From contig JAVTLE010000003.1 of the NCBI GenBank assembly GCA_033439295.1, forward strand, positions 1,426,001 through 1,490,000: a stretch of DNA of 64,000 bases, read 5' to 3'. A model generated the notes under the pieces. That model did no database searches. It had not been told where the DNA came from and saw only the letters and a list, made by a program, of their open reading frames with translations. A program made the position numbers and the translations under genes. Below are positions 719 to 60,300 of the stretch, one piece after another. The number at the start of each line of letters is the position of its first letter. The first letter of the stretch is position 1. The DNA is from Deuterostichococcus epilithicus (lineage: Eukaryota; Chlorophyta; Trebouxiophyceae; Prasiolales; Stichococcaceae).

Positions 719-3700
719 ATGCTGGCGCAGGAGATGATTCATGCGCCATACATCTGCACTGCAGGTCACACGCAGCGCTGCGCACCGAGTCAGCACAACA
801 GACCGGTGCTCCAGGCGGCCGCAGGCCTGCGACGAGGCACCCCCTTCCAGCCCCAGGCTCATGCGTTGCTGTCCAGCTGCAGCGCCTGCAGAGGCCCGTC
901 AGTGCATCACCTGCAGCCCGGGCAGCCGGCTGCCACAGCACCATCATGGCAGAGAAGGGCCCGCAGGTATGTTTTCGTGGATGCTCTGACTTCATTTGGT
1001 TGGATCCCATATTGCAGAGCTGTTGGCTGTGAGGGCTAGGTGCACGCCAGTCATGACACCATGGTGTGCTGTCCCAGGCGCATGCACACGCGTGCGGCGG
1101 CCAGCACCAGCGGCGGCGGCGGCAAGCGCATCAGTCAGAACGAGTTCACGGAGAAGGCATGGCAGGTGGGCAGGGCAGCTTTGCATGGTACTGGGTGGCT
1201 GGACATTGTGCATTCGTGGCCTGCCTCTGCCAAGTGTCCACCATTGCCAATGCAACAATGAGCTCGGCCAGCTGGCGAGAGGACGTCCAGATTGAGCTGA
1301 GACAAACAAGCTTTTTCGGGGACGTTGTCATGGATGTCAGTCAGACGTCCACAACAGATCCTGAAGCGCTGCGCCGCCAAGTGCAGGCGGTCACAGCGGC
1401 GCCCGAGATCGCGAAGCAGTACTCGCAGCAGATCGTGGAGACGGAGCACCTGCTCAAGGCGCTGCTGGAGCAGCCCAACGGCTTGGCGCGCAAGATCATC
1501 AGCAAGGCAGACGGGAACCCCACCGCGCTGCTGGACGCGACCGAGGCCTTCATCCGGCGGCAGCCCCGCGTCAGCGGCGACTCCTCCCAGGCACGTCCCT
1601 TTCGGAGTGATACAGGTTTCGGAGTGATACTGGTATCGAAACGGGCGCTGAGGCACAGTGCAGCTTCGCATGCGAGCCGCTTGGCAGGCGCTGCGACTTG
1701 TAGGGTGTGTTTCGGTTGGGGTTGCCAATGGTCCACCGCTACTTGTGCGGGGCGCCGGGCGCAGGGATGGCACATTCAAGTCCCTGGCATGCTACAGCTT
1801 GCCATGCATGCAGCACGTCACTAAGGCACTGACAGACGTCCCCTGCCTGCAGATCCTGGGGCGCAACCTGGAGGCCCTCGTGGGGCGCGCGCAGGAGCTG
1901 AAGGGCGACATGAAGGACGACTTTGTTTCAGTGGAGCACCTGCTGCTGGCATACGCCGACGACGCACGCTTTGGGCAGTCCGTGCTGGCGGCCGAGGGCC
2001 TCGACAGTGCCAAGCTGCTGGAGGCAGTCAAGGCGGTGAGGACACCCCTCTGTCTTCCCTCCTCTTTGCTTCTGTGCTTGGTCGATTGTGTGAGGCGCCC
2101 ACGTACACGATGCTGATGCGGCTCCTGTGTAAGCTGTCGCTGTGGCTTGGGCCATCGCGGCTGGCCGCTGCTCCTGACCGAGACCGTTGGGTGTGTGTGG
2201 CTTCAGCTGCGCAAGGCAGTCTTGTGGCGCCACGGTCTGTATGCTGACAGCCGAAACACGTGCCTTCCGGGGGACAGGTGCGGGGCAGCAACAGGGTAAC
2301 AGACCAGGACCCAGAGGGCAAGTACGAAGCCTTGTCCAAGTACGGCCGGGACCTGACGGTGGCCGCCCGTGACGGCAAGCTGGACCCCGTGATCGGCCGC
2401 GACGATGAGATCAGGCAAGACCCATGATTCAGAGGTTTCATCGTTCTGGAAACTTGATCCTGCTGTTTGGGACTGCACTCGATGACCTGCAGAAGGCACC
2501 TTGGCGAGCTTGTTCCAAGCAATTGCAGGCCACGCAGTGAGCTGGCACCTGAGGCGTCTGCTCTGCTGGCTTGCAGGCGAGCAATCCAGATCCTGTCGCG
2601 GCGCACGAAGAACAACCCGGTGCTCATCGGCGAGCCGGGTGTTGGCAAGACTGCTGCGGTGGAGGGCCTCGCGCAGCGCATTGTGGACAACGATGTGCCA
2701 GACGCCCTGCAGGCATGTGCTGGAGCAGCTGACTCCTTGTAGCCTAGGCGACTTGCAGAGGACGCTCGTTGTACTGACATTCGATGCTACCAGCCACTGT
2801 GCAGCAGTCACAGCACATGTCGCGGCAAGGTCCTCAGAAGGCGATTGCAGCCTCCCTGTGTTGGTGCAGGACAAAACCATATGGGCACTGGACATGGGCG
2901 CTCTCATTGCGGGCGCCAAGTACCGTGGCGAATTTGAAGACCGCCTGAAGGTACTATAGTACCTCTTGCCTTTCGCAGCAGCAGCTGCCTAAAGTTGCAA
3001 GAGCATGCACACGTAGACCCCTGCTGTGGAGTCATTGAGTTGCCACTGCTGATCTTGTACCGATCTAGCAATGTCTAGCAATGAGGGACGGATGTGCATT
3101 TGCGTTGTCAGCATGCGGTGTTTTCTGCACGCGCAGGCCGTCATCAAGGAGGTGACGGACTCCAACGGCCGCATCATCCTGTTCATTGACGAGGTCCACA
3201 CCATCTTAGGTGCGGTTTTCAATCTGCGCCATGCGTTGCGCTCGTCTCAGCCCCTCAAAGACTCACTTGTCACCGTAGTGCAAGAGAACCCATGATTGAT
3301 CAACGGCAATGCAGCCAGTGCGACACATGCAGTGGGCGGCGGGTGGCGGAATTCGATTGATGACGGTCTCACCTATAAGGCGTGCGCCTCGTATTGTCTG
3401 GCTCACATCAAACACAAATTTGCGAGGGGTGCAGGGAACTGCAACTCTTGTCGTGTCGGCGCAGGCGCCTCAGGGCTCCATGCACGCGCCCAATCTGCTG
3501 AAGTCGGCTGGCTCACAGCAGCCAACAGCTCTTACACAGATACTCAAGGGTTCTGCACAGCTGAAACGACAGCTGTCTCCCGGGCTCAGGCGCGGGCGCC
3601 TCGGAGGGCTCCATGGACGCGGCAAACCTGCTTAAGCCAATGCTGGGGCGCGGCGAGCTCCGCTGCATCGGCGCCACCACACTCGACGAGTACCGCAAGT

Positions 3701-6700
3701 ACATCGAGAAGGACCCGGCCCTGGAGCGCCGCTTCCAGCAGGTCGTCGTGCACGAGCCGAGCGTCATCGACACCATCTCCATCCTCCGCGGCCTGCGCGA
3801 GCGGTGATTCACCCTCCCACTCTCCCATCCCTTGTGCCTTGTTGTAAGCACCGCATCCTCTGCTGCTGGGGGTCGCTTGCTGGTCTCGCCTTCGAAGCTA
3901 CAGGCTTGTGGTCACATGGTGGCAAAGGCTGCCGTGGCACGGGACATGTCGACCCACCGCCTGGCGTGCAAGCCCCACAGGAGGTCTTCTGTGTCTGTCT
4001 GCACAGACTCGACTTGGATGCAGGCCCGTTCTCACCTGCCATGGCCTGCCTGCGCAGGTACGAGCTGCATCATGGCGTGCGCATCAGCGACAGCGCACTG
4101 GTGGATGCGGCGGAGCTCAGCAACCGGTACATCGCGGACCGCTTCCTGCCAGACAAGGCCATTGACATCATCGACGAGTCGGCGGCCAAGCTGAAGATGG
4201 AGATCACCAGCAAGCCGCTGGCGCTGGACGAGATCGACCGCAAGGTGCGGTTTCCAGAGTTCCGGGCTTTTGGGTACTGGGGCCCTGATTTGTTCTTGGG
4301 TTCATGGTCGGCAGGTCCAGGGGCAGTGGCAGTGTAGCGCTGACTCTGCACAGGGCCCTGATCAGACGCATCTAGGCAGAGTCGAGACCCCTGGCGTCTG
4401 CACTGCAATGCAGACATCCTGCGCTTGCTGTTGCTTTCACAATCTTCAAAATCTTCACAATTTTCACAATCAAGATGCTCACTCTCATGTCGTGTTGGTC
4501 CCCGACACAGCCGAGCACCCCCTCAGCCGCTTCTGCCTCCCCTGCAGGCCTTGCGCAGCACGTTCGACATGGTTGACAAGGTTCAAGCGCTTTGATCACC
4601 CCTTTCCGTTCCCGCATTGAACAGGTGCTGCAGCTGGAGATGGAGCGCTTTTCGCTGTCGAAGGGCGCCGACAGCGATCGGGCGGCTGGGGCACGCCTCA
4701 AGGGCATCGACAAGCAGCTCAAGCAACTCAAGGATCAGCAAAAGGTTGGCGATTCTCCTTGCGACCACAATTCGCACATCAGGACGGCTGGCTCAGGGGA
4801 TGCCAGCCTTGCGGTATCCACAGGAGCTTTTGCTTCGAGCACAGAAGCCAGTGAGCCGATGTGCCTGCAGGCCGCCGAGGCGTTGCCGTATGACCAGAAT
4901 ATCAATTTCCGAATGCTCTTGGTAGGACGCGGCGGCCGACTGCTCCTGCTAGGACGCGGCGGCCAAATGCTCCTGCTAGGACGCCGCGGCCAACTGGGAG
5001 CGAGAGCGCGACAAGATACAGCGCCGGCAGGACATTGTCAAGCCGTGGCCATCTTGGGAAGCTGACCGTGTCACATTATTTGCTATCCTCGCAGGACCTG
5101 GCGGCTAACTGGGAGCGGGAGCGGGACGAGATGAAGCATCTGCAGAACATCAAGGCGGAGATGGACCGCGTAAATTTGGAGATCCAGAACGCAGAGCGCG
5201 ACTACGACCTCAACCACGCCGCGGAGCTCAAGTATGGCACCCTCATCCAGCTGCAAAAGCAGCTGCAGGAGGCTGAGACCGCCCTGGAGGCTCAGGTGCG
5301 CCCCCCGCAACCACCCCCCAACCCACCCCACTGGCTCGGGGGTGCCTCCTCTAAGGCACACGGCGGGCAGGCTGGGGACACGCACCGCACTTCTGCATGA
5401 GCATCTGCGACGGGGCCTGCGTCGCGCCTGCAGCAGGCAGCATGTCACACAGCACAGAGCATGCAGCATATATTCTCGTACATTTCCTTTGTGCATGTAC
5501 ATCCAGAAAGTCTTTCGCATTGCTGTGCCTCGGAAATATCAGGCACTGCAATAGATGCGGCGGGTGTCGAACGGAGCGGGCGCAGCGCACATCTTGTCGG
5601 TGTCATCCGGCAAGTCGCGCTCGTCTGCCAAGGGCTCACCAGAAACGGATCCAGTGTACTCTCTGTTTGGCTGTGTCTGGTTTTCAGCCCTTTACAGTGC
5701 TCCACAGTTCGCTGAATGCATATCTGTGACCTGCCGCAGACGGACGGCGTGCGCATGCTGCGGGAGGTGGTGACGGAGGTGGATGTCGCAGACATCGTGT
5801 CCAAGTGGACCGGCATCCCTGTCTCCAAGCTGGTCGCCTCGGAGCGGGAGAAGCTGCTGCACCTCAACGATGTGCTGCACCAGCGGGTGGTGGGCCAGGA
5901 CGAGGCCGTGGAGGCCGTCGCAGACGCCATCCAGAGGTGTGGAGGATTCAGAATGGGGAAGTTCAGGGGTTCACTCATTGGTGAGACGGTCTGTTGTGCC
6001 TGGTTTCGTGGGCCAAGCCGAGGCCATGGTCGATGCCGTCCAGAGTTACAGGGCATCTTTTGATGTCACCTTCTGGAGCGGCATAATCCACACAGATCCC
6101 ATGCTATGCTTCAGCGCTCATTGAGGGTCCCACAATTGGCCTGCACGAGGCGTTGGGAGGCAGGCGCTCCGGAGCTGTGCCTCTGTATGGCACTGGAGTG
6201 CAGTGCCGCTGCCGCGTGAGGCTCCCAGCGCTGTGGTCCTGTCAACCGAACATGGCCTCGGCCTTTCATCAACGACACAGGGGCAGCCGCACGCGCCGCT
6301 CTGCCTCTGCCGGCGCCACAGGCCGCGTCCCCATCTTTGGTACATCGCCGCTGATATGCGCTGGATCCCAGCCCGTCCGCAGGTTGCGCGCGGGGACGTC
6401 CGACCCGAACTGCCCCATCGGCAGCTGGTTGTGCCTGGACCCCCAACCGGCATCAGCAGACGGGGCTTGGTTCGACTGCTGCTCACGCCCTGGTCAATGG
6501 TTTGTCACAGGTCACGTGCAGGGCTGAGCGACCCGAACCGCCCGATTGCCAGCTTCATGTTCCTGGGCCCCACCGGCGTCGGCAAGACGGAGCTGGCCAA
6601 GGCGCTGGCGTCCTACCTGTTCAACACCGAGGAAGCCATCGTGCGCATCGACATGTCGGAGTACATGGAGAAGCACACCGTCAGCCGCCTCGTGGGCGCG

Positions 6701-8851
6701 CCGCCAGGTGCGGGGCTGGAACTAGCCTTGCCGAGGAACACGAAGCCTGGAGACTGATTCTTTGGCAGGATCCGACCGCGCAGCCATGCTTGCGAAACCA
6801 CTGTCGATGCACGCCCTCTGGGACACTCGGCGGCCTCCTGGCGCTGCATTCCATGGTGTGCGCTCGGTTGTCAATCTGTCAGCCGCAAAGCTGTCAGCTG
6901 CCATGCTGGACGCCTGCCATTTGCTGGCTTTGTGGTCAGTGTGTGCCATAACTGGTCTGATCCGGGAAATCTGCTGCTTGTTGCGCCTGGAGGCTCTGAG
7001 GGTGCTCAGCGCTGCTCATGCCACAGCTGCACAGACGCTGATGGTGCTGACACCCTCGCGATGAGGCACACCCCTGATTGGAGTAGCTGTCACATGCAGG
7101 CTATGTGGGCTATGATGAGGGCGGGCAGCTGACAGAGGCGGTGCGGCGGCGACCCTACTCTGTCGTCTTGTTTGACGAGGTAAGCATCGTGGCCGGCATG
7201 ATGCCTGTTTCGATGTGCGTCATACCCATGTGCCATGATGCTTATCAGCTCAAGTGCTCAAGTGCTCCAGTGCTAAACCCTAAAACTCTTGAGCACAGCA
7301 AGGCTCTGGACGTCCGCATTTCAAATCCTTGCTGCTCTGACAGCAGCCTCGACTTCTGCTTACTGTGTGCCGGCTGCAGGTGGAGAAGGCACACGCGGAT
7401 GTGTTCAACATCCTGCTGCAGATCCTGGACGACGGCATGGTCACCGACAGCCAGGGCCGCAAGGTGTCCTTCAAAAACACCATCATCATCATGACCAGGT
7501 GAGGCACAGGCCGCTGACCGACTGTCCCTGCCCGGTTCTCCAACCTGATCCTCCACCCGCTGCCGCCGCTGCAGGAGCCCTGCTGTCATCCGTGCGTCAG
7601 CCATCCGTGCCTGCGCCTCGCTGACTCCGGGTGTGTTGCGTCTCCGCAGCAACATGGGGTCGACAGCCATCCTGGAGATGGGCGGCAAGGAGCCGGAGCG
7701 TGTGAAGGACGTCGTCATGGACCAGGTGCGCCTTGTGGAATTGGCTCTTTGTATGTTGGGCCTGTATAACTTAATTTCTGCCGAGCGCGTGAGGGATGTC
7801 CTCATCGTCCAGATGCGCCCTGTCGTTTTAGGGTCCAGGGTTCAAGGCCCTCGGCTATGTGGCAGATGCTCTGTAAGGTGCTCTATGAGCACGTTCAGCA
7901 GTCTACACACACAGCATCGTAGCAGCACGAGCAGGCAGCCTTGAGGTCTGTTCCCCTCCCCATGCACCCACAGCTGCCGACAGGTTCTTGCTGACAAAGC
8001 TCCCCTGCCGCCAAAACAAGTCAAATCTCAAGCCTTACCCAGCTCTGCTTGCGCGCAGGTGCGGTCACACTTCCGGCCGGAGTTTGTCAACCGGATCGAC
8101 GAGTTCATCGTGTTTGGCGGCCTCAACCGGGAGCAGATTGCCGTCATCGTGCGCCTGCAAGCTAAGCGGGTGGCGGAACGCCTCGCCTCCCGCAAGATCA
8201 AGCTGCAACTGGACGACTCGGCGGTCAACTACTTGGCAGACAAGGTGCGAGATGCTGCTTCACTCACGCTATCTCGTTCACCCCAGTGTGTGGCGCGCTG
8301 TGGCAGAACCCATCATGTGGCTTTAGCATTGTGTTTGGTTTGGCTGCGTGAGGCTCCGATGTGATCCTGAGGATCGTGGCATGTGTGGGCCCCATTCTGC
8401 GACGCTGACTGCTGCTGTGACTCTCTCGCTCATACAGGGCTTCGATCCGGTGTTTGGCGCACGGCCGGTGAAGCGCGCGGTGCAGCAGCAGCTGGAGACG
8501 GTCATCGCTAAGGCGCTGTTACGCGGCGAGTTCGGCGAGGAGGATGTGGTGCGACATCTTGCCTGTGGCACCACATTATGATGTTCGTGTGCGCAGCATC
8601 AGATTGCTACGAGCATGCATTCGAGCATCTTGATTGGCATCTGCAGTGCCGCAAGCATTTGCGAGCTTCACTGCAGGGTGAATGATGCCTTCTTGGTTGC
8701 GTGATTGCAGATCGTGGTGTCGGCGCCAAAGGAGGGGGCGCCGGACCAGGTGGTGCTCAGCCACGGCACGCGTCCCAAGGGCCACGGCCTGAGCGACAGC
8801 AGCTTGCTGGGCACGGCCTCAGTGTCGGACTCGTATGACATGGCGGCGTAG
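719..8851 (+). CDS. CLPB3: Plastid-type ClpB disaggregase (Hsp100), about 20 exons
   Basis: AAA+ unfoldase that works with Hsp70/DnaJ to rescue aggregated proteins; the sequence is closest to the plant organellar ClpB3 type. In order: an Arg/Ser/Ala-rich N-terminal presequence (719-966 plus the start of exon 2), the Clp N domain ([32 protein letters not shown]), AAA-1 with Walker A GEPGVGKT (about 2628) and Walker [11 protein letters not shown] (about 3173), the coiled-coil middle domain (about 4620-5295), AAA-2 with Walker A GPTGVGKT (about 6570) and Walker [11 protein letters not shown] (split by an intron at 7181-7378), and a C-terminal [13 protein letters not shown] small domain. The protein ends at TAG 8849-8851 with DSYDMAA. 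ATG 719 is the first in-frame Met; 734 is equally possible. No break is seen. Four introns contain decayed copies of adjacent exon edges (see findings). Confidence 0.95.
3457..3508 (+). repeat. Decayed copy of the following ClpB exon start
   Basis: About 52 bp inside the ClpB intron 3211-3589 match the first 57 bp of the real exon at 3589-3645 ([16 protein letters not shown]) at roughly 80 percent. They are in the same orientation, about 130 bp upstream. The copy is not needed for the protein. Confidence 0.75.
4434..4473 (+). repeat. Short tandem repeat in a ClpB intron
   Basis: About four imperfect units of the 9-10-mer AATCTTCACA (with AATCTTCAAA and ATTTTCACA variants) lie head to tail in an AT-rich patch of the intron before the exon starting near 4623. 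This is a simple minisatellite with no visible coding role. Confidence 0.6.
4915..5042 (+). repeat. Triplicated junction fragment and pseudo-exon in a ClpB intron
   Basis: The unit CTGCTAGGACGCGGCGGCC occurs nearly three times in a row (4921-4993). The last copy runs into 45 more bases matching the real exon at 5093-5155 at about 75-80 percent. Read in frame it gives [18 protein letters not shown], against [18 protein letters not shown] in the true middle domain. The copy keeps an AG in front but shows no clear donor behind. Confidence 0.8.
6007..6047 (+). repeat. Decayed copy of the preceding ClpB exon end
   Basis: The segment GTGGGCCAAGCCGAGGCCAT and following bases to about 6047 repeat the end of the exon at 5889-5938 ([17 protein letters not shown]) with small gaps. 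The copy is on the same strand, 70 bp into the downstream intron. Confidence 0.65.
6377..6465 (+). repeat. Decayed copy of the ClpB AAA-2 Walker A exon start
   Basis: About 85 bp align to the real exon start at 6510-6598 (acceptor, then [22 protein letters not shown]) at roughly 70 percent, including the acceptor-side AG. The copy has lost the P-loop codons, so it is not an alternative functional exon. Confidence 0.7.
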
Positions 8852-12454: not shown

Positions 12455-17136
<4,682 letters not shown>

Positions 17137-19762: not shown

Positions 19763-19828
<66 letters not shown>

Positions 19829-22215: not shown

Positions 22216-27205
<4,990 letters not shown>

Positions 27206-35780: not shown

Positions 35781-36693
35781 GTCTGCAACTTTTGCAAAAG
35801 CTCTTTGCAGCAGGGGTAGAGTACGCAGTGTGCCTCAATAGACGAATTGAGCGCATCAGAGGCCATCGCAGGTGATGAGGTGGAAGTTATTCCCCTTGCA
35901 CGTGGACACCTGCAGCTTCCTGCGTCCGTGGTCCTCGCCAACTACAGATGCTCGTACGCGCAAAGCTGCCGCCCAGTTGCTCAATTCCGTGCTTCAGAAC
36001 AATCAGTGTCATGATCAAGTACCGTATCGCCGCACCGTGACGCAGGCGCCGCTGGCGTGCTGTGTCGAGATCAGCGAGGACCACACCGAACACGAACGAG
36101 GCTTTAGAGGTGCGGTTCCATTGCTGCATGCATACACATCGTTCATGACGACTCATTGACGTACTCTTCGCATGCTAGGCCCAGTTTGGCAAGCGTCAGA
36201 GCCTTCTACGAACACGTTCTCTTGGATGGGCTCGTGGTGAGCTTGATATGCTACCTCAGTGCATGTTGCGCCTCTGACAGGGCGCCAAAGACCCGGCTTC
36301 TGATGATGAGGTGTCTTATGTGCCTCCGTTTGCAGGTCTCACTTTGACTTCTGCTCCTGCTGCCGACTTGCCTTTATCAGCAAAAGGATCAACGGGCAGA
36401 AGGTGCGACGTGCACTCGGTACGACACGATGCATCGCTTGACTAGATACCTTTAACAACGGTGTTGTGCAAGCACCGTCAGCCATGGCCTCTGCCGGCAG
36501 TCGACGGTTTGTGTGCTGCTGTTCATGATAGGGTCTGCAGCATGCATGCAGGCAGCATGCAGCTGGACCCCAAACTGTCCCGGCAACTGCACAAGCTCAA
36601 GCTCGACATGGTGCAGCAGCAAGCGGCAACTTCTGCAGGGTCGAACCGACGAGCACTGGTGCACAGGCCGTTCAACATGCATGCCGCCGCCAC
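35781..36693. other. Divergent promoter region between FTR and CID-type genes
   Basis: About 910 bp with no conserved coding segment that I can place. A non-coding first exon, or a short N-terminal exon of the CID-type gene, could be here; an open frame at 36461-36751 (with LSRQLHKLKLDMVQQQ) is suggestive but has no clear splice into the gene. Confidence 0.4.
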
Positions 36694-39173
36694 ATGCCCC
36701 TTGCTTCTGCTTTCAACCATCAAGCGTTCCAGCCCATGTCATATGCCGTAATGCAGGGCGACATTACCAACGCAAGGCCCCCGCTGCAACCCACGACGAA
36801 CAACACGAGCGTTCAGTTCGCACAACACAGCCAGCCAGGCAGCTTCGCGGTGCCCTACACATGCCGTCAAGTAAGCGGTGGCGAGCCGCCACAGGACATC
36901 CCAGCAGGCCATCCACCGGGTCGCGCCAGCGAGTATTCCAGTGTCTGCAGCACGGTGCTTGGCGGCCAGCAGCTCAACCTACTGGCGGCGGCGGGCGGCA
37001 GCAGCAGCCAGTACCATGCGACCTCTTCGGGCAGGTTCTTCAGCACCGACGACCCGGGCGTGAGCGGCCGGCGGCAGCACGCAGCGCAGCGCGATGTGAC
37101 AGCCTTCGCAGACAGCAGCAGGCCGTGGTGGTCGCCAAACGATGAGAACGCGCTGCCGAGCTACCGCACCTTTGCAGGCAGCAGCACTGCCGCCACCTTC
37201 CAGCCGTCTGCGCCCCGCCTGAGCCTCCAGCCGGCAGCGGGCGGCTACAGCAGCGGCTCCGACCCCTACAGCAGACCACTTGCCGATCCAGTAGAGCGGC
37301 CTGCAAGCAGCGCCTCCAAACCCGGCCACACGCCTTTCGGCCTGCAGCAGTTGACGTCCCAGCAGCTGGATTGCGACCCCCCGCAAGGCGCCAGCCGCAG
37401 CGTGCAGACACAGCCAACCTATTACGGCGTGACTTTCCCAGCAAGCCACACCAAAGCAGCTGTTGCCGACCTTGGGGCACCGCATCTGCCGGGACCAGAC
37501 TATGTGGGCGGCAGCTGCAGCCCATTGCTGCCGGCTTACCAGGCTGCGCCTCCCGATGGCAGTCTGGAGGCCCTGGCCGCTCAGCTGCAGCGCTACATGG
37601 TCAGTCACGCTGCCAGAAGCGATGGCAGCTTCAGCAGCTTCAGCAGGCAGCCCGGCGGCGGCCATCCCGACGCTCGGGCCGACTTCCACGAGGCTGCCGG
37701 GCCGCCGCCCGCCAGCCAGCAGCTGTTCAGCAGGCAGTGGCCGCCGCCTGCGCCCGGCCGCGACTGCACCGACTCGGCAAAGCTGCTGCAAGCCCGTCGC
37801 ACCGTGTACGTCTGCGACATTGACCCCGAGGTCGAGCTCAAGTAATCCTGCCTGTTTGTTTGGCTGCTGAGTTCTGCATGCCAGCTTTGCCGCCTGCTTC
37901 CGCTCACCTCTGCACTGGTGACACTTTTCCAGCAACGTCTGTGCTCCTGTTGAATGTCCTGCTGCTGTCCGCTGGGCTGCCTGCATGTATGACACCTATC
38001 TACTGACACGCCTGCAGGTCAGGGAGGCAACCCTGGCGGGCCTGTTCTCGCGGTGCGGCAGGATCGTGGACTGCCGCCTGTGCAGCGACCCCAACAGCGC
38101 GCTGCGCTTTGCCTTTATCGAGTTCTCTGCCGAGGACGCAGTGCGCCAGGTGTCCGCCTCACCACCTGCTCGCCGTTGTTCACGATGATGCAAAGCACCT
38201 GATTTGCTGCATGTGCACCTGGCAGCAGGTTTGCAGCATGCATGCAGCCGCGGCGCCTACCTGCTTGAAGACGACATGCACACTGAGCCATTGCGTCTCA
38301 CTGCTGACACCATAATGCGGAGTCCCTTGGGCGGCGACAGGCCCTGCGGCTGAACGGCGCCGCGCTGGGCATGGCCTCGGTGCGGGTGATGCGCTCGCGC
38401 ACGGCAATGATGCCGGTCAACAGGGACCTGCTGCCGCGCTCGGGTCCCGAGCACGAGCGCTGCGGCCGCACCGTGTACGTGGCCAACATCGACGAGCGGC
38501 TGGACGCCGCCGACATCCGCCGCTTCTTCGGCAAGTTCTGCGGTGCGCACTCCCCAAATGGGCAGCGCATGTGCAAGCCGTCTACAAGTCCGCCTGCTTC
38601 TTCAGCAACCTCTGCGTTGTGCATGTTTTGTGCATGACCAGCTGCACAACGCATGTGCAAGCCTCAAAAACTCTGCCGCTTGACTTGTAGCCAGTAGCTA
38701 CAGCGTGTGGGGCTGTAGATGCATGGCTATATGCTGCAGGTGGGGGCAGACTTCACTGAAATCCACTCTGCAAACCCCTCCCTTTCAAGTCCACCTGCTT
38801 GTCGTACCTCCAGTGCTTGAACCAAACACGATTTCTGCTTTCGGCAGGAAACATCATGGCGATGCGACTGCTGCGCAGCAGTAGGAGCGCGACGCAGATT
38901 GCCTTCGTGGAGTTCGAGAGCGCCGAGTCAGCAGCCGAGGCGCTACAGTGCAGCGGCGCGTTGCTCGGTGAGCACCTGCCGTGGCTTCGCATGAGTACCC
39001 CCTCCGAGATGCTCACCATCCTCTTCCATACAAGTGTGTGGTTCAGACATTTGTGTGGGTGGCGCTGTGTTTGACAGAGGTTCTCGAATCAATGCTTGTG
39101 CGCATGTTCAACAGGGTCGCTGCTGATCCGGGTTTCGCCGTCCAAGACGCCCATCCGCATCCACGATGAGTAG
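36694..39173 (+). CDS. CID-type two-RRM protein (PABP-interacting family)
   Basis: Related to plant CID8-CID13 RNA-binding proteins, which bind the PABP MLLE domain. A long first exon (36694-37830) encodes a low-complexity Ser/Pro/Gln/Ala-rich N-terminus. RRM1 starts RRTVYVCDIDPE and continues over the intron with VREATLAGLFSRCGRIVDCR, then LRFAFIEFSAEDAVRQ. RRM2: CGRTVYVANIDERLDAADIR, then MRLLRSSRSATQIAFVEFES and LLIRVSPSKTPIRIHDE, TAG 39171-39173. The first donor is placed at GTCGAG (37831) because it restores exact RRM1 spacing against the family; reading on meets a stop four codons later. A clear PAM2 motif (LNxxAxxFxP) is not seen; near the N-terminus SAFNHQAFQP is a shortened resemblance. 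ATG 36694 is the first in frame. Confidence 0.88.
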
Positions 39174-42592: not shown

Positions 42593-42669
<77 letters not shown>

Positions 42670-45960: not shown

Positions 45961-48900
45961 TCAGGCGGCGACGGTGCCCCAGCCGATGGAGGCGAGGTAC
46001 TCGGAGTAGAGGTCCTCCTGCCCCGTGGCCAGCCCGATGGGCGCTCGGAGGATGTGGTCCGGGATGGCGAATGCCGCCACCAGCGGCACCGCCACGCCGC
46101 GGATCTGGCGGCGCACAACTCAGCAGGGTTTGCTGTGCGCTTGACAACAACTTCGTGATCTACGCCTTTGTGACGAACTGCACCTGGGCCGACGGACTCC
46201 GGCTGCTCTCAAGCGGGCGCTGCATGAGAGTCCTCCACCACGCGACCCTGCCACCCTGATGCACGCTGTGGCTGTCTGCAAACCAGGATGCACAGCCGCG
46301 CGCCTGCGGCGCCTGCAAGCACGTGCGGGTGCAGCGCCGGGGCCGCGCGGGCACCCGCGCTGTCGCTCGCATGCAGCCGCTCCAGCAGGGAAGGAGGGGC
46401 GAGGCGCGAGGATGGTCGGCCCACCTCGAGGCACAGCTCCTCCAGCAGGCGCGCTATGGCCTTGGCCTTCTCGGGGGAGACGTAGTCGTCGTTGCGGAAC
46501 AGCGCCTCCTCATGGATGCGCTTGAGCGCGAAAAGGTCCGCCATCGCCTGCGTGGGGTTCACACGGCGACAGCAGTGAGAGATGGTTTGCCGGGGCACTC
46601 GAGACATGCGCAGCGCGGCTGCAGTCCCCTCGTGTCGACAAGTGTCTCTCTTCCACACGAGGAACACGTGCCTCCCGAGCCCTCGGGCCCGTGAGCGCAC
46701 GCCCCGTCAGCCCCCCTAAGCGCACTTCCATGCAGTCAATGGCCATGGCGAGTCGTGCCGACCCCACGACTTTTGGGAGACAACACAACGGAACGACTGG
46801 AAGTTCAGGAGCTGCACCTTGAGGGCCTTGCGGCAGTCGGGGTCCACGCAGCTGGTGACGCCCGAGTAGAATGCGTCCAGCATCAGCGACTCCTGCGGTG
46901 CCGACAGTTGGTAAACAATCAACATCATTGTTTCGAGCCGTCCGTTATGACCTTCGGTACGATGTACCCGTCCTAAATATGACAAAGCATCTAGCTTTGA
47001 CATGCAGGCGGCGGGCGGTCAAGGCGGTCTGCGCATGCAGGCCGGAGCAGCTGGCAGCGTATCGGATGGGGGCGCTCCAGAAGCGGCAACGAGACAGCCC
47101 ACTCGCATGCAGCCGTCCCACAGCAGTCTCCCTCTCCTCCCTGATCCCCTCTGGGAGTCTCCCCAGGCTTGGCTAGCTGGGCCCGCACCTGGTGCGCGGT
47201 GGCCAGCGCCAGCAGGTGGTTGAGGCACTTGTTCCAGGCGTGGAAGGAGCCCAGCCGCCGCGTGTGCTTGCGCAGCCGCTGCGCCACAGTGTGCAGCAGC
47301 CTCGCCACCCGGTAGCTGCGGAGGGGAGTGAAAAGGAAGGGGTTGACACTTCAGTGCCAGACCTCGCAGCCCCTCAGTACTGGCCGCACAATCTCCAATT
47401 TAGAGATCCAGCCACTTGGGAATGCGCAGCCGAGCCTCAACTTGGCCTGCGCGCGACCGTGCGTCAGCAGCTGCAGACCAGTGGCTCAACAGGTGCGGTG
47501 CGGGAGACCGCGACCGGCCTGGGCCTCGTGCCGGGTGCAGCCCCCCCCAACAGCAGGCAGGACTGCGACGAGAAGGAGCAAAGGAGTCCCCTGAAGCTCC
47601 GCCCTCACCGCAGCGCGCGCTTGAGGAAGGCGGGGTCCCGCAGGTGGCGCGGCCCGGTGTCATGGGAGACCAGCGGGTTGGGCGGCAGGGCCCCGATAGC
47701 CCACTGGCGCAGGTAGGTCCAGGTGGCGGACACCGCGCCGCCCTTGAACTTGTCCTGGTACCGCTTCAGCAGCATCGCCGCCACCTGCTGCTGCAGCACC
47801 GTGTTGTCGCCTGCGCGCACAAGCGCAGGTACGGAGCCGTCACCGCCGGCTTGCTCGAGCCCGCATGCCGGCAGGCTCCACCTACACCACCTGGCTGTGG
47901 CATAGCAGAAGGCTATATGCGCGGTGAGACCGCGCTCTCGGAGCCTCCTGCCTCCGAGGCGAGGTCGTCGCGACCTGCGCGCTGCCGTGTGCACCTTGGA
48001 GGCACGGCAAGTGCAGGGACATCAGCGCACCCTCGAAGGTCTGGAAGGTGTCGATGGCTGCTTGCACACGCCAACGACTGCAGTGTGCAGCTTAGGGGAT
48101 GAAGCAGATCGAGGGAAGCACAGGCATGTGGCACACCCTCGAAGGTCTGGAAGATGTCGTGGTCGGAGCGCAGCGCGCCGAGCCTGTTGATGGCCGCATA
48201 GCCGTGCCCGCCGCACGCCTCCCGGCACACGCTCAGCGCATTTGCGGTGTAGGACGTCGTGTAGGCCTTCAGGCCTGCAAAACGGTACAAAGCCTTTCAG
48301 GCACGAGATCAGACGGGCAACATGCGTCGGCTGCTGTGAGTGCTACCTGGCGAGGCTCGCTCGGCAGGGCTCTATACTGCACTCCAGGCTTTGTAGGTAG
48401 GCCCGCTGCCGAGTCACGTTCCCCCAGTGAGCACAGCTGCGATTTGCAAGACGTTCCAAAAGGTCGTGGAGTCTGCAATTCCCACACTACCCAGCACCCA
48501 GGCGCACAGGGCCACAGGTGCAACAACCGGATCGGCCTGAGGAGGGATATAAAGATGCTGCGGCCAGGCAAGCGCAACCCCTCGAAATGCCGTGACGGCG
48601 GAAAACGACTGCACATTGGCGATGAGCTCTTCATCATCATCATCGTCGGAGCACTTCATCTCGTAGCAACTTCGGCAGTTGCAGGGGTCGGAGCAGGGGT
48701 CGGAAAGGCTTTGCTGCAGCAGTTTGAGACGGCTTCTCACCAGCAGAGAAGGAGTGCACATCGGCGATGAGCTCCTCGTCTCGCGAGCGCTTCATCTCGC
48801 AGTACATGTCCACCAGCTGGTTTTTCGCAAAGTGAAGCGCATATGTCGTCGCCAGCATGGGCATCAGCCGCCTGCAGGCGGCACCAGCAGCGGCGGCAGT

Positions 48901-51667
48901 CAGAACCTGTGACGTGCCTCTGTCAGCCCAGGAGCCTGGCGGCCACTGCACATTGGTGTTGGGGGCGTCTCCGGAGCACACGTGCAGAGCCGGGAACTCT
49001 GCAGGTGTATGAGTTGCGCGACGAACACTTGAGCAGACATCGCTTGACGCGGGTGCGTTCGCTTCACGCGGGCGCGGCATCGCAGAGGGCGCCGGCAGGG
49101 CGAGGCGTGTCGGGCCGGGGATGCCGTGCAGGCGGGTGCGCGTCGAGAGCCGAGGGTTCAGGGACATGCAGAGCTCGAAGGGTGCGCACCACTGCAGGCT
49201 CTGGTAGTCCAGCACTGCAATCTCGGAGCCGTCCGGCGGGCCGAACTGCTGGCGCTGCGCTGCGTACCGGATGGCAATTGTCGCCGCGCCCTGCGATGCT
49301 GAGATGGACCCTGCTCAGTAGTAGAACCAAATGTACGACACCTGCAGGCGCTGACTGCAGATCCTCTCGCACGTCAAGGGAAAGCGCAATGTCTGCACAG
49401 CCCAAAGCTACTTGTTCGCCGCCGGGCGCAGCAAGCAGGTTGCAGAAGGCTGCAGCCGCTCTAGAGGTCTCGTCACCGTGCCGCCCCGCTCACCTTGAGG
49501 ACACCCAGCGAGCCGGCAGTGAGGCCGACCCGGCCGCCAGTGAGCTCGCCGAGCGTCGCGGCGAACCGCTTGCCGGCGCTCGGCAGCGGGCTGCTGTATC
49601 GCCCCGCACGGTCCACGCTGGCAAAACGGTCCAGCAGGTTCTCCCTCGGGATGCGCACGTGCGTGAAGCGGATGGCGCCGTTGTCCACGCCGTTCAGGCC
49701 CACCTGCAGTGGTGACATAAGTCATCGGCCCACTGTGACATAAAGAAGTGTGAACTTGGTGCAGGATGTGCAGCGCTGATGACGCCAAGGCCTCTGCGGT
49801 CCCAGCTGCCACAACGTATGACCCCTACCTCGACTGAGCTGGAGCACGCAATGAGCAGGCGAGCCGGTGCATGCTCTGCCATTGTTCTGCAAGGACGACG
49901 GCTGTGTGACCGTGCAGGCCCCGCCTCTGCCCCACATCCGTGCAATAATCTGCCATGCAAGCACTCTGCTGAAACTATTGGGACCCACCTTGCAGCCGCA
50001 GTTGTGAAATCTCATGCGCCTGCCTGCATGAAACTACAAAGGCGTGAACAATACAAAAAATGCCTATTCGCACCTTGTAGCCGCAGTCGTGAATTTCCAC
50101 GCCCGGGAGGCAGACACCGGCGTCGTCTCGCAGCGGCACAATAAAAGCATGCACCCCATGGTCGTCGATGGTGCCGCTGCCATCGGGGGCGGGCACTCGC
50201 AGCCGTGCAAAGACCGTTGCCGCCCGGCCGTCCTCCGCCGCATTGCCGATCCACCACTGCAGCAATGCAGCAGGAAAGCTCGTGAGCAGAGCTTTGCACC
50301 AGCCTCCCAGCCGGCCTCATTGCAACATTGAGGGTTGCCTGTTTTCAAGAAGCAGCCCGCCGAGATAGGGCAGATTGCACTCGAGGTGCCGTCGCATTCA
50401 GCAGCGTTGCGTTCTGCAGGCCTGCACCGCTGCAGGCTCTGACCCAACGCATGCAGCTCCCGCAGCGGCTGACGGACTGAAACCCACGAGATCATTGTTC
50501 AGAAGCTTACCTTGATGGCGCCCTCGTCGGGCGTGTGCACGTCCCACTCGTCTGCTGCGATATCCAGCATCGCCTCTGTCTGCAGGCCCGCCACATTGGA
50601 ACCGTGGCGCAGCTCCGTCATCGCGAAGCAGCCGGGAAGCCGGAAGCTGTCGATGTCATCAAAATACTTTTCCCGGTGCCGCTCAGTGCCCAGGTTGACC
50701 ACGCTGCCGCCCCACAGGCTGTACTGGACGCCCATCTTCACCATCTGTACGTGGCCAGAACAGGGGTATTTGATCCATCAGCCTGCGGTGCGGCACTATC
50801 CGATTGCGACCCTGACGTTCACAAATGCCAATATGCCACGCAGTTCAGGTCCTGAGATGCAACTGTAGTTCGATAGCACCAACTCAAAGCCCCGTGCTTG
50901 GCCTGATGCTGACACTGATGTTGCCACCGCTGGGCATGGCACGGTGGGAATTGCCTACCGATGACAGATCGATGAGGCTGTACAGCTCTGCCAGGTAGAA
51001 ATATTTTTTGTAGTCGTTGGCGAAAAACTTCATGGGGTTGTAGCCCGCCTCCAGCACCAGGCGCAGGTGCTTTCGGCAAAGCTCCCGGTGCTCCTCTGCG
51101 CAACGGATTTGACGGATTGCGTGAGTCAACACCAACCTGGCCAGCCCAGCCGTGTGGCAGCGCCATTCACTGCTTCGCGTGACCACAAGGTGACCAACGC
51201 GGGACTGCATCAGCACTCTGGCTTAGCCGACTGCATGCAATGCAGTTGAAGTCTGTGGTGTCTGGCCAACATCAACATTGCGGCGCCGCACACAACACCC
51301 ACCTTTGCTCATGCCCTCGCCGATGGCGGGCAGCAGCTCCGGGTGCTGGCGGAACAGCTGCACGCAGCAAAACCAGAGGCTTGGCTGAGCAGTCTGCAAG
51401 GGCGTCAGCAGCAGCTCATGGGCAATCCAGGCCACTCAGCCCCACCTCGTAGACCTCGTTCTTCATGCTCCGCAAGTCGTCCAGGTAGTTGGCCAGCACG
51501 TTGCTGTCAAATCGTGGCAGCGTGCGGCGCACAGCGCTTGAGCAGGCCGCCATAGACACGCCAGTTGACACGTCTGCTGCTTGCACTTCACCGCCATCGT
51601 TTTGGCCGACCCTCAAGTGGCGCATCAGCGCCACGAGACGCCCCTGTGCTGCTGTATGCGACTCCAT
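45961..51667 (-). CDS. ACX3: Peroxisomal acyl-CoA oxidase, ACX3 type, with PTS2
   Basis: FAD enzyme catalysing the first step of peroxisomal beta-oxidation; closest to plant ACX3 (medium chain). From ATG 51667: RLVALMRHL at residues 10-18 fits the PTS2 consensus R-L-x5-H-L, and the C-terminus GWGTVAA is not a PTS1. Then [221 protein letters not shown] and [20 protein letters not shown] at 45961-45963. About 20 exons. Three introns carry decayed copies of exon ends. A second Met upstream (51727) would bury the PTS2, so I prefer 51667. Confidence 0.94.
48027..48062 (-). repeat. Decayed copy of an ACX3 exon end
   Basis: Matches the real exon end at 48134-48168 almost perfectly over ATC/CTTCCAGACCTTCGAGGGTG; the copy reads DTFQTFEG against DIFQTFEG and keeps the GT donor. 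It lies about 105 bp downstream in the minus-strand intron. Confidence 0.8.
48598..48670 (-). repeat. Decayed copy of an ACX3 exon end with an Asp expansion
   Basis: The copy reads [20 protein letters not shown] and then FSA, against the real [20 protein letters not shown] at 48741-48805. Same strand, about 70 bp into the downstream intron. An ATC/GAT triplet run has grown inside the copy. Confidence 0.8.
49985..50020 (-). repeat. Decayed copy of an ACX3 exon end with donor
   Basis: Copy reads MRFHNCGCK followed by GTGGG; the real exon end at 50070-50105 reads VEIHDCGYK followed by GTGCG. About 80 percent identical over 35 bp, 50 bp apart, with both splice donors intact. Confidence 0.8.
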
Positions 51668-51986: not shown

Positions 51987-54900
51987 TCAGGACCGCTCGT
52001 CCGGCTGCCACTTTGGCAAGACTAGCTCGTCCGCTTTGGACAGCAATTGCAACTCTGCCAGCTCGCTGCGGCTGAGGATGGCGCCGACGCCCCGTGAGGG
52101 CTCGCTGCCGCTGCTGTCACTGCTCGGGCCGCCCCCGCTGCCGCGCGATGCTGCTGCCTTAGCTGCAGCGGCGGGGTATGCCGGGCCGCTCACGAGTGAT
52201 CTGGACCGCGCAGGCGGCTTTAGCTTGCTGCCGTCTGGCGCCAGCCAGTCTGGGGAGCCGCGGGCACCTGCAGACACGGTCAAGACATGCTTGGCACGGT
52301 GCCCTGGAAACGGCAAGTCGTGCAAGCTTCGAGATAGCAGGTCCAGCGCCCGTGGCAAGTGGAAGGTGCATGCGCATCTCTGCGCTGAGGCAGGGGCGAC
52401 ACTGCTGCCGGACCTGCCCCGCGACCCAGCCGCAACTGGACCAGGACGGCAGGCTGAGGGCGGGTGCGCACGCTGTTGCGAGCTGGAGGCCTCGAACCGC
52501 TCGAACCAGGTGGCTATCTGCTGCAGGATGGGCTCCAGCGGCTCCAGCACCTGGTCTGGGTCTGCAAAGTTGCGGGGCGCCACCACCTGTGCGCCCATGT
52601 AACGCACAGCTTGCGTGAAGGGCAGCTGCGGCTCATTGAAAAGGCCCTGATCACCCCTGATGGCTCATGGAATACGGAACACACCTTTTCCGGCAGAGGT
52701 TCATGTTCCAGCATTGCACAGCGCTGCCGAAAGCCCGGCCTCAAGCCGGGTAACACACCACGGCAGCATCGCAGACGAGCTTCACATGCTCGGCGTCCGA
52801 ACGGCAGCGTTTGCCGAAAGCACGGTGGCAGAACCAGGCCACGAATTCAGGTCATCAAAACCGAAGTTGCACCTCCTGCTGCTCCTCGAGGCTGTACTTG
52901 CGCAGGTCGTCCGCGCGCTGCAGGAAGCCCAAGTCCTCCTCCATCTGTGCCCACGCCTGCAGTCTCATAAAATGTGACTCAATACACCGGATTTGCATGA
53001 GCTCCAGTCCCTTTCGCCTGGCGCATTGCACGAAGCCCAGATCCTCCCCCATCTGCCCCCGCGCCTGTGTTTGCACACATTGACACCATAGTATTTGCTA
53101 CATTACAGACCGTGCGGGCTGCCTGGGGACCCTACATGTGCGCCCACGCTTGCACTTGCAAAGAGATGTGCAAAATCACACCCAGCCTGACACACGGCGA
53201 ATGAATCTGTCTACAATAGTATTCCACCTGTGCCCACGGTTGCAGAGCATGACACGGCGCTAGACATGTCCCTAATGGCACCATTTGAAGGTCTGCCATG
53301 GGTAACGAGCAGGTTGGCAGACGCCAACTTGACAGTCAACATTTGCCAATCCATGCCATAGCCCCCAATCCAACAGCAAGCGTTCGTGTGCGGGCTGGAG
53401 GGCGCGCCTTCCAGCTGGGCTCCGACTGGGGGAAGGCCTTGACGGCACAGCGGAACAGCTGCCGCGCCAGCTGGTGGTTGCCCGCCTGCTTCTCCAGCAC
53501 ACCCCATGCCTACGCGGCGCCGACAACCATGTGTTGCCGTGAGACTACTAAACACTGTCTGCGGCAGGAAAGCAAGGTGCTGAACCATTACGAGACCAGG
53601 AGGTCACCTGTCTCAGTCGTGACGGCTCAGCCACAGGTACTTGCTGTCAGCCGCATTGGGTGCAGAGGAAACGTGCACCGTGCACATGATTGGGCACACG
53701 TTTAGAGTCTCTTGTGGATGTAGTGCCATTTGCACTATTGACCGCAACATTAAAATTTAGCGGGCATGTGTGGCATGCACCTGCCAGACGAAGGCCACGT
53801 CGCGGCTGCTGGAGTCGGCCCAGACGCCCTCCTGGAACAGCTCCCGCGCCCGGTCCACGTTGCCACGCCGGAACTCCATCACGCCCCATGCCTGTGAGCG
53901 AACATGTGACGGATGCACTTCGAAACGTTATTCCTGTTTGTGTGCTACTGTCACAGCAAACTCTTACGATATGATGATGGTCGCAGGCACGTTGACAGCG
54001 TGTAATGCCTATGGAAACTCTGGCGCCATGCAACAGACGCCACCTGCCGCACAGGGAAGCCCGGCGCTTGGGTGGCTGACTAGGGGAGCACTCTGTGCCG
54101 TCGAAGTTCATTGTGCAGATGACAGCAAAGGGGCTGGCGCCGCCGTCGTGTGCGCACCTGCCAGATGTGGAGATGCTTGGGGTCGGCCTGGGAGCCCTTC
54201 TCGAACACCTCGCGAGCCGCCTCGATGTTGCCCGCCTCCTCCTCCAATATCGCCAGCGCCTGTGAAGGGCAGCCAGTTGAACGTTTGCCATGCCTCAGGG
54301 TGCCTGTCACTTCTCAGTACGAATCGTGAAAGAGAGCATCGCAATCGCAAAGCAATTTGCCAGTTTGGGGACTCGGAACAGAGACCCCTCCCACGCCTCG
54401 CCGCTTGCAGGCCGAGTAGCAGCCAAGACTGATCCGGGACCTCCGACAGACGCACCACAGGCTCGGTGTCACAGGAAAGAATGCATTTTAGTCACCGGTG
54501 CATCAGCACACCTGCAGGATGGCGGCGTCGCCGGGGTTGAGGTCGTGGCCGCGCTCCAGCAGCTTGCGTGCGTTGTTCAGGTTGCCCTGCTCCTTCTCCC
54601 ACGTCGCCCACGCCAGGTGCAGGTACCTGCACCGAGTTTCATGCGCACTCAAATCAGAAGATGGTGTCGGGCTGCATCTAGCAACGTTGTGCCGCTGTAG
54701 CCTGTGACCTCGACTTGAGCTGCCAGCATTGAGCAAGTCCACAAGCCCGCACGAGCTCTGCTGCCCGGCGCTTAGCTGCTGCTACACCCGCACACGAAGC
54801 GGAGGGAAGTGGCGCACTTGACGTAGAGGATATGTTGCGGAAATACATTGCATGCGTCGCAGCAGCAGTCGGCAACCCTCCAATGCGAGCGGGGTCAACA

Positions 54901-57333: not shown

Positions 57334-60300
57334 ATGGCGACGTGCATGGTGCACGCGCAGGCGCCCCGCTTTGCAGCGCCTCTGCTGGATCGCAAGCATT
57401 GCTTCAAGGGCCACAGTGCGCCGCTCCGCACACAGCAGAGGGTGCGGCCCGTTTATCTGGGCTGCAAACTTCGTTAAAGCGCGCCAATCTGCTGCGTCAT
57501 CGCTATCGTCTTGATGCTTCAAAGCCAACGTGACACACCAGATCGGGTTGCTAGGCGGCAGCTTCAGTAGCTGGCCCCACACGATCGAGTGCTTGACTTT
57601 TCCGGCTTTCAGTGTTGATCCACCGTAATGGTGGCATCCAGGAGTGTCGATACTTCTCAGTCCATCAATCTCGATCAATGTGACGCAGGCTGCGGCTCGG
57701 GCTCAGCGGCAAACGGCGGTCACAGTGTCCGCCTCTGGCAAGAACATCCTCATGCTGGGTGAGGCGCGACGCCTCAAGCATACCCAAACAATTGAAGCTC
57801 TGCTCAAGTCATAACCTCTTGTCGCTGCTCCAAACGCCATGAGGTTTGGCGCCTGCGCGCCAAGCACGAATGACGGCAAACTGTGCATCCTGGAGACAAC
57901 CTCGCACGGTCACGCGCTCTTCCCCACATGCAACACGCCCGAGGCTACCTCGTCACACTTCTCCCATACAGGCGGCACGCCCTCCATCGGTGCACCTGAT
58001 CTGATCTTGTCGTGCGTTGATGCACAGGCGGCACGCGGTTCATCGGCGCGTACCTGGCGCGGCAGCTGATAGAGGACGGGAACGAGGTGACGCTGCTGAC
58101 GCGCGGCAAGGCGCCCATCACGCAGCAGATCCCTGATGACACCGACGCCTCATACGCGGAGTACAAGGGCCAGGCGAGTGACTTCTCTTTTCATGGCCCC
58201 CTTGCGGACGGCATCGCTGAGTCTATGACGGCGCCGGCACAGGCGCCATCTGTTCTGACACGCAAGGCGGCTGGCGACTGCGGCTGGCTCGCTCAGGAGC
58301 AGCATACCGAAAATGACGGTGCGTTTCTCCAAACTCAGGTGAAGCATGCCAAGGCGGACCGAAAGGACACCGACGCCGTGAAGGACGCCATCGGCGGCAA
58401 GAAGTTCGACGGTGAGGCTGCACTTGCTGTCGAGCTTCGCTTCACATCTACACTGGTCACATCTACGCTGGTTGGCACTGGCAGCGTGCGAAGCCACAGG
58501 AACGTGAGGAAGGGACGGTGCTAGCATGTGCAGAGGCGCTGGGCGCAAGCAATGAGCGACCTTTGTGGAAGCAGGCGCGCATGAGCGGCGGCAGGTGGGC
58601 GGCTCGGCGGGCAGCACCATGCTGGGCGCTGCACAGTCGTGTCAGCAGTGCACTGCCGCCAGGGCACACGACCTCAGCAAGCGCTGCAAACGTGTCAGGG
58701 CAGCAGCGTGTGCGGCGCTGCGCGGCTCAACTATCATGCCATAAATCAGGGACACATATGCCGTCCTCATCAAGCCGAGCCATGAAGATTCCACGCTGCG
58801 GCGGTTGAACGACATGATCGGGAGGCGGCCGTCATGGATGGCGGCGGTCGGCAGCATCACTCCCTCAGATCACCTTCTCAGGCTTGTGGGCGCCAACAAC
58901 ACGGTCGGGTCTGGGCGCCGCCGTCCGCACAAGCATGCTTACACTCTCATGGCGCAATGGCCGCAGTGGTGTACGACATGAACGGGCGGGAGGCGGCCGA
59001 CACGGAGCCCATCCTGGCGGCGGTCGGCGACATCGAGCAGTACATCTTCTGCTCCTCCGCGGGCGTGTACCTCAAGTCGGACCAGATGCCGCACATCGAG
59101 ACCGACGCCACCGACCCCAAGAGCCGCCACAAGGTGCCGCTCCTGTGCACCTGCATGTCGAGACCGCCTGTGCCTTCCTGTGTCGGAGGACTGGTGGTTG
59201 GGGGGAGGCGTGGGACCGTCAGAAGGGCGCGGCGACGGGAAAGGGTCGGACGGCAAGCGAATTGCAGAGCCAGCTGACGTCACCAACAGAGAAGGAGCAC
59301 AGCACCTCGGGGGGCAGGCGTGACACACAGGTGCCGAAAGTCCTGAGCCCATGCGTCAGCAGCAAGTTCTTGCTCGGAATGTTGAGAAGTGTTATAAAAG
59401 CCTGGTGCTAGCCTCGAACTGCATCGCTACAGGGCAAGTTGAATACGGAGGACCTGCTGGAGCAGAAGGGGCTGAACTGGACCAGCGTGCGGCCCGTCTA
59501 CATCTACGGCCCACTGAACTACAACCCGGTGGAGGAGTGGTTCTTCCAACGCCTCAAGGAGGGCCGCCCCATCCCCGTGCCTGGCTCCGGGATGCAGGTG
59601 CGGGGCAGATGGCATCCGAGTAGTCGGCTTGAATCACGAAGGATTGAAAAGCACCCTCGTAGTCCCACTCGCTTTTGAGGCAGGCACAGCAGGATGATGG
59701 GAGCAGCGGGATGTGCGCCAACGCTGCGCCTAGTGGCGGCCTACGTGACGCTGGACCAGCCCTGCGGTCGCCTTTCATATGGTCTGCGAAACGCTCATCC
59801 AACATCAGGAGGTTTGTCCAACATCGCAGGTGACGCAGCTGGGGCATGTGAAGGACCTAGCGACCGCCTTCAAGCTCGTCCTGGGCAACGAAAAGGCCAA
59901 GGGCCAGATCTACAACATCTCCGGCGAGCGGTGCGCCTCAATGCCCCGGCATGCCAGCGCAGGCTCACTGTGAGCCGGCTGAATGGCGATGGAGCACAGG
60001 GGCACAATTCTTATCCGTTGTCGTTTCTGACATGTGTTCCTGACAACTGCGCAGGTATGTAACCTTTGACGGCATTGCCAAGGCATGCGCGGAGGCGGGC
60101 GGCTTCCCGTCGCCTGAGCTGGTCCACTACGACCCCAAGGACTTCGATTTTGGGAAGAAGAAGGCGTTCCCACTGCGATCGCAACATTTCTTCACGTCCA
60201 TCCACAAGGTGCCGCTGATGAAGACATGAATGATCGAATAATGATGGTATACAGAAAACGCACGGGGCTGACTTCGCTCAACTGCTGGTTTCGCATGTGC

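Follow-up and report, generated by a model that had tools for sequence, protein, structure and literature searches.

Decayed direct copies of exon edges in adjacent introns of a 64-kb stretch of the Deuterostichococcus epilithicus genome are consistent with short duplications across exon-intron boundaries

Gene content and gene models of the window

The window analysed here, a 64-kb stretch of the green alga Deuterostichococcus epilithicus (contig JAVTLE010000003.1, positions 1,426,001 to 1,490,000), exhibits a G+C content of approximately 61% and carries intron-dense genes, several of whose introns contain decayed copies of the edges of neighbouring exons. These copies are the subject of this work, and all counts and rates given below refer to this window only. 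The products matched in the window comprise ClpB, an acyl-CoA oxidase (ACX3), a poly(A)-binding protein (PABP), a phosphoglucomutase (PGM), a peptide deformylase, the beta chain of ferredoxin-thioredoxin reductase, UvdE (encoded by UVDE), a NUDIX protein, an RRM protein and a thioredoxin. Additionally, the window encodes an NAD epimerase-family protein, which we take to be CSP41b, and a TPR/HAT protein that is presumably MBB1. The presence of plastid-type genes is in keeping with a green alga.

Gene models were generated with a hidden Markov model (HMM) of codons and splice sites, self-trained on the window and restricted to GT/GC-AG introns, which predicted 157 exons and 147 internal introns with a median intron length of 213 bp. 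These models are sequence-based predictions. Their translations are nearly free of stop codons, the one internal stop being located where two genes had been merged, and the model sometimes fuses neighbouring genes on the same strand. The coding models of ClpB, ACX3 and PABP align with relatives in the PDB over most of their length, and those of the other genes were matched by Pfam. The repeat scan and the later analyses counted as intron three short predicted exons of CSP41b and ACX3 (18, 27 and 51 nt), and the lag analysis and the refined simulations did the same with a 21-nt predicted exon of UVDE. This treatment is favoured by Pfam for the 27-nt exon of ACX3 and the 18-nt exon of CSP41b, and is a matter of judgement for the 51-nt exon and the 21-nt exon of UVDE.

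Exon edges recur as direct copies in adjacent introns

A previous sequence-only reading of the window had described same-strand duplications of exon edges, usually including the splice site and located on both the donor and the acceptor side, and had proposed a comparison of each intron with its flanking exons. This comparison was performed within the window on 128 introns of 60–600 bp situated outside masked stretches, yielding 243 of 256 possible intron/exon-edge pairs after edges shorter than 15 bp had been dropped. At p<0.001, same-strand matches were detected in 10 of the 243 pairs (five on the acceptor side and five on the donor side) and opposite-strand matches in none (0/243), and permutation of the intron-exon pairing yielded on average 0.145 matches and never more than 1 over 200 permutations. 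At p<0.01, there were 16 matches on the same strand versus 2 on the opposite strand, and a run on the first gene models revealed, at p<0.001, 9/298 and 1/298 matches, respectively. Thus, the duplications were recovered as described, with a same-strand excess over both re-paired and opposite-strand pairs.

An ungapped repeat scan (lag 15–400, score of at least 17, four low-complexity stretches masked) identified 26 direct and 5 inverted repeats, and three shuffled sequences gave 0, 2 and 1. The direct repeats consist of 14 between an exon edge and its own intron, 4 confined to introns, 6 between exons and 2 outside genes; the repeat at 30776 was assigned to the first class after a predicted 21-nt micro-exon had been re-read as intron. 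For exon/intron repeats with lags of 50–150 and a score of at least 16 (eight stretches masked), 13 were observed versus approximately 0.34 expected from lags of 600–3000. The 14 exon-edge copies, 6 of them on the acceptor and 8 on the donor side, belong to ClpB, PABP, UVDE, ACX3, MBB1, CSP41b and the gene for an RRM protein (Table 1). Offsets range from 56 to 145 bp for the twelve nearest copies and amount to 221 and 283 bp for two further ones, the identity of the exon part lies between 0.77 and 0.96, and 14 of 127 introns carry a recognisable copy. Copies had been claimed in at least seven genes, and of the seven named, six were upheld; PGM showed no exon-edge copy in the pair test (best p 0.057), and one case (38522) falls in the RRM gene, which had gone unnamed. 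These findings confirm that the exon-edge copies in adjacent introns of the window are real.

Three other origins were considered and rejected. Chance arising from base composition was ruled out by the shuffles, the inverted repeats, the non-adjacent pairs and the permuted pairs. Protein domain repeats, exemplified by TPR and RRM repeats, appear as exon/exon matches at longer lags and were not counted. As regards a transposable or introner-like family, the copies have no related copies at a distance in the window: self-comparison on both strands, at distances up to 20 kb, revealed a single direct match with a score of at least 80 beyond 1.2 kb, and no inverted match.

Table 1. Exon-edge copies and intron-only tandem repeats in the window
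Gene	Feature	Position (strand)	Copied segment or repeat unit	Offset (bp)	Match, p	Remarks
ClpB	copy	3458..3503 (+)	acceptor and first 47 nt of exon 3590-3803, in intron 3210-3589	131-133	p 7e-5	copied acceptor (cag/GCGCC) outscores the used acceptor; intron half repeated too (p 0.005)
ClpB	copy	4971..5035 (+)	acceptor and 56 nt of exon 5095-5295, in intron 4745-5094	115	65 nt ungapped, 75%; p 7e-5	
ClpB	intron-only tandem	4909..4996 (+)	27-bp unit x3, adjoining copy 4971..5035			TAG and an exon-start-like stretch in every unit; read as a second duplication round
ClpB	copy	6380..6467 (+)	acceptor flank and 73 nt of exon 6522-6707, in intron 6340-6521	128	p 7e-5	
ClpB	copy	7783..7823 (+)	last 30 nt of exon 7650-7725 and 11 nt of intron	87	gapped p 0.0038	donor GT changed to AT in the copy
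ClpB	weaker copy	6008..6029 (+)	exon tail 5890-5911 (exon 5740-5936)	118	gapped p 0.0005; ungapped score 16	
PABP	copy	24330..24371 (-)	last 39 nt of exon 24454-24589 and donor	121	p 7e-5	intron-half homology not found in the between-copy, extension and ungapped intron-half tests
UVDE	copy	30776..30798 (-)	tail and donor of exon 30896-31079	113		copied donor equals the used donor in strength; modelled as 21-nt micro-exon 30783-30803
UVDE	second copy	30679..30709 (-)	tail of exon 30896-31079	221		offset about twice 113
UVDE	intron-only tandem	33308..33398 (-)	near-perfect 46-bp unit x2			starts at the donor
UVDE	intron-only tandem	33676..33760 (-)		48	78%	
RRM gene	copy	38596..38623 (+)	tail of exon 38341-38542		p 0.0002	repeated unit runs on through ~84 nt of intron head; donor GT changed to TT in the copy
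ACX3	copy	48025..48053 (-)	tail of exon 48137-48274	106	27/29; p 7e-5	donor intact; modelled as 27-nt micro-exon 48031-48057
ACX3	copy	48598..48635 (-)	tail of exon 48741-48871	145	p 7e-5	
ACX3	copy	49986..50017 (-)	tail of exon 50074-50256	85	gapped p only 0.0098	donor intact
MBB1	copy	53021..53067 (-)	acceptor and first 44 nt of exon 52873-52956, in intron 52957-53407	108	p 7e-5	
MBB1	further copy	53223..53245 (-)	acceptor region of exon 52873-52956	283		
MBB1	weaker copy	near 53131-53155 (-)	acceptor region of exon 52873-52956	193		
CSP41b	copy	57968..57993 (+)	acceptor and head of exon 58028-58173	56		modelled as 18-nt micro-exon 57972-57989
CSP41b	copy	58812..58838 (+)	part of the head of exon 58967-59133, in intron 58412-58966	168	acceptor-side p 7e-5; ungapped score 16	

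Extent of the duplicated unit and decay of the copies

The similarity between the two copies extends past the splice site into the intron over 22 nt in ClpB 7783 and over approximately 50–60 nt in UVDE 30776, ACX3 48025 and the RRM gene. An anchored-extension test combining the 14 cases gave p 2.6e-8 against random intron sequence and p 0.003 against the splice flanks of other introns. A stricter, ungapped test of the intron half was clear in 3 of 12 cases, namely ClpB 3458, the RRM gene and ACX3 48025 (p <=0.005). In the part of the cases in which the unit can be traced, a boundary-crossing tandem segment was duplicated, and its intron half decays faster. The exon half would remain recognisable longest because the exon is conserved, so that only one member of the pair would drift.

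The introns carrying copies are longer than the others, with a median of 338.5 bp (n=14) versus 204 bp (n=113; p 6.7e-6). When the offset was subtracted, their median fell to 225.5 bp and the difference disappeared (p 0.66); when only the copied segment was subtracted, the median was 294.5 bp and the difference persisted (p 0.0008).

Differences between exon and copy are distributed over codon positions 1, 2 and 3 as 34/159, 22/165 and 34/159 (p 0.098), revealing no clear coding constraint on the copies. Functional coding copies were accordingly rejected as an explanation, since the differences are not concentrated at third positions. Six of the 14 copied splice sites reach or exceed the lower-quartile strength of used sites, and the other eight are weak or lost. 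The process had been regarded as a continuing one, which is doubtful given that only 1 of the 14 copies shows fewer than 0.12 substitutions per site.

Purely intronic tandems, with periods of 17–48 bp, are also present. A repeat with 45/46 identity that had been interpreted as an exon-edge copy proved to be one of these, an intron-only tandem at 33308-33398 that starts at the donor site; it is the youngest local duplication observed. Ladder-like sets occur in MBB1 (offsets 108, 193 and 283), in UVDE (113 and 221) and in ClpB intron 4745-5094, where a 27-bp array lies beside a 115-bp copy, and they look like the product of repeated duplication rounds.

Separately, weak self-similarity over whole units was observed at offsets of approximately 77–137 bp in introns 26614-26972, 3804-4057, 63131-63399 and others. 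Self-similarity at p<0.05 was found in 12 of 128 introns in direct orientation and in 4 in inverted orientation, with 6.4 expected, and these signals are possibly older intron-only duplications.

Comparison with known intron gain and local duplication

Tandem duplication is an established route to new introns (PMC3443670, PMC2891723): according to the relevant parts of these sources, the Rogers model, based on tandem duplication of an AGGT segment, is reviewed in the former, and Drosophila cases are presented in the latter. Common to that route and to the window is a short tandem duplication made harmless by splicing. However, as the route is outlined there, the new intron equals the duplication in length, whereas in the window the offset equalled the intron length in 0 of 14 cases and was always shorter (offsets of 56–283 versus intron lengths of 182–466). 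Furthermore, when 107 introns were tested for an AGGT register, the 99% null quantile was exceeded by 1 head match and 3 tail matches (1.07 expected for each) and the 99.9% quantile by 1 head match (0.11 expected). For lack of a register signal, intron birth by AGGT duplication was rejected, and with offsets below intron length in 14/14 cases and the AGGT signature at chance level, the proposal that such duplications supply new introns was not supported. A further suggestion, that they are a main source of intron sequence, was not demonstrated: counted in full, the offsets of all recognisable events add up to 1844 of 30032 intron bases (approximately 6%).

In the potato RdRp gene, as far as the case is set out in the sections of Ma, Lan and Niu (2016, PMC4974935) considered here, a tandem duplication across an intron-exon boundary likewise repeats the acceptor and the exon head. 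There, the duplicate is spliced as a new intron plus an inserted exon, confirmed at the RNA level, whereas the copies in the window have most likely remained part of an intron that grew longer, and roughly twelve such cases, in decayed form, occur within 64 kb. Repair has also been invoked for short duplications of nearby sequence in vertebrates, some of which take in parts of exons and splice sites (Pace et al. 2009, PMC2671141). In the portions of that study considered here, near-tandem copies (within 50 bp) were left out and an inverted exon copy is described, whereas the copies in the window are direct only. What sets the window apart from known cases of tandem-duplication intron gain is the outcome, with longer existing introns, and the density. 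The events most likely lengthen existing introns rather than create introns. A literature search found no title on decayed exon-edge copies in algal introns, which is not a claim of their absence from print.

Other features of the window

UvdE (30012-33647) and the beta chain of ferredoxin-thioredoxin reductase (33899-36129) were predicted as one gene, and the 936-bp gap that separates them points to two adjacent genes. GC donors are present in 23 of the 147 predicted introns (1591-58966), a high share for GC-AG introns; many are otherwise strong (CAG/GCGAGT-like) and a few are doubtful predictions. Long CAG arrays, read as glutamine runs, are located in predicted coding exons at 19763-19831 (23 units) and 42594-42668 (25 units). 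A scan for PABP gave 1 pattern match and no relative in the viral_contigs collection, and 50 pattern matches and no relative in genome_contigs.

Proposed duplication across a single boundary and its alternatives

We propose, with a probability of about 0.6, that short tandem duplications crossing one exon-intron boundary, at offsets mostly of 56–145 bp, lengthen existing introns. A tandem duplication across an acceptor would leave the old mRNA restored by use of the downstream (outer) acceptor, and one across a donor by use of the upstream (outer) donor. The unchanged mRNA would let the duplication persist, and the inner exon copy, together with its splice site, would turn into intron and add one unit of length. 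Freed of coding constraint, this intronic copy would then decay, whereas selection would preserve the real exon, and further rounds of duplication would yield ladders of copies. Since the inner exon copy would end up in the intron after a boundary duplication, copies that are direct, adjacent, two-sided and inclusive of the splice site would follow. The duplicating step itself may be slippage, end joining or unequal exchange. Turnover of splice sites, another anticipated consequence of the duplications, was not demonstrated; continued use of the former outer site is what the model predicts.

Several observations weigh against this proposal. For 6 of the 12 intron halves, the ungapped test gave p >0.3, and their mean score over all cases, 8.5, is far closer to that of unrelated intron (6.55, sd 0.57) than to that of simulated duplicates (10.1–28.9). 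Only 1 of 9 segments between copies reached a local p <0.05 in the first tandem-unit test, which is a weak one, and longer introns offer more room for finding a copy, which affects the length tests. Neutral simulations with uniform ages predict that 35–44% of the events detected at these offsets are intron-only, that the stronger half is exonic in 61–69% and that identity exceeds 0.9 in 21–43%; the observed values were 0/12 (one intron-only match at score 16 belongs to the RRM-gene unit), 11/12 and 1/14, respectively. Every simulation, first and refined, conflicts somewhat with the lack of intron-only repeats at these offsets. With fixed older ages and many indels, the intron-only share falls to 0.106 and the probability of 0 in 12 is 0.26, under parameters that were chosen, not measured.

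This shortfall bears on a bias towards splice junctions. Duplication might be aimed at, or selectively kept at, splice junctions, units of approximately 110 bp re-copying exon edges beyond neutral expectation; we regard this as a minor possibility, which, if true, would entail decoy splice sites arranged in ladders and a continual source of candidate micro-exons. A related explanation, that exon-edge copies are preferentially made or kept near junctions as splicing decoys or enhancers, or through duplication coupled to transcription or splicing, seems improbable. In its favour, exon-edge repeats outnumber intron-only ones by more than neutral simulation predicts, and six copies keep a splice site in the range of used ones. 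On the other hand, the majority of copied sites are weak or lost, the exon copies exhibit no clear codon-position bias, and much of the excess can be produced by older age, by indels and by a faster decay of intron-intron pairs.

The cases, about half, in which intron-half homology is absent or undetectable could also be accounted for by double-strand-break repair that copies nearby DNA, with the exon-edge segment alone pasted into the intron and never a tandem unit, in line with the short nearby duplications including splice sites described in vertebrates in the same portions of PMC2671141. However, the complete absence of opposite-strand copies from the 243 pairs differs from the inverted exon copy reported there, the matches are located at the exon edge and often span the splice site, the excess in intron length corresponds to the offset rather than to the copied segment, and three cases, as well as the 27-bp, 46-bp and 48-bp arrays, are plain tandems. 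Repair of this type is an improbable source of the copies.

It is highly improbable that some copies represent real alternative in-frame micro-exons of 18, 21 and 27 nt, by which a duplicated boundary would provide an extra exon and a new intron: although the gene model picked 57972-57989, 30783-30803 and 48031-48057, with acceptable sites at both ends, and the potato RdRp gene had that outcome in the sections of PMC4974935 referred to above, Pfam scores are better without the copy (168.7 versus 158.7 bits for ACX3 and 84.2 versus 79.5 for CSP41b), and at the 27-nt segment of ACX3 a gap is present in its best PDB relative.

Implications

The modelling of three decayed copies as in-frame micro-exons is a warning for gene finders. 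The origin and lengthening of intron sequence are usually hard to see, as introns decay fast. A duplication that crosses a boundary anchors one of its halves to a conserved exon, which thereby provides a dated reference for otherwise invisible growth. Should the rate in the window (14/127 introns and approximately 6% of intron bases) apply to the whole genome, the growth of introns through boundary duplication would become countable, datable and comparable between species from a single assembly.

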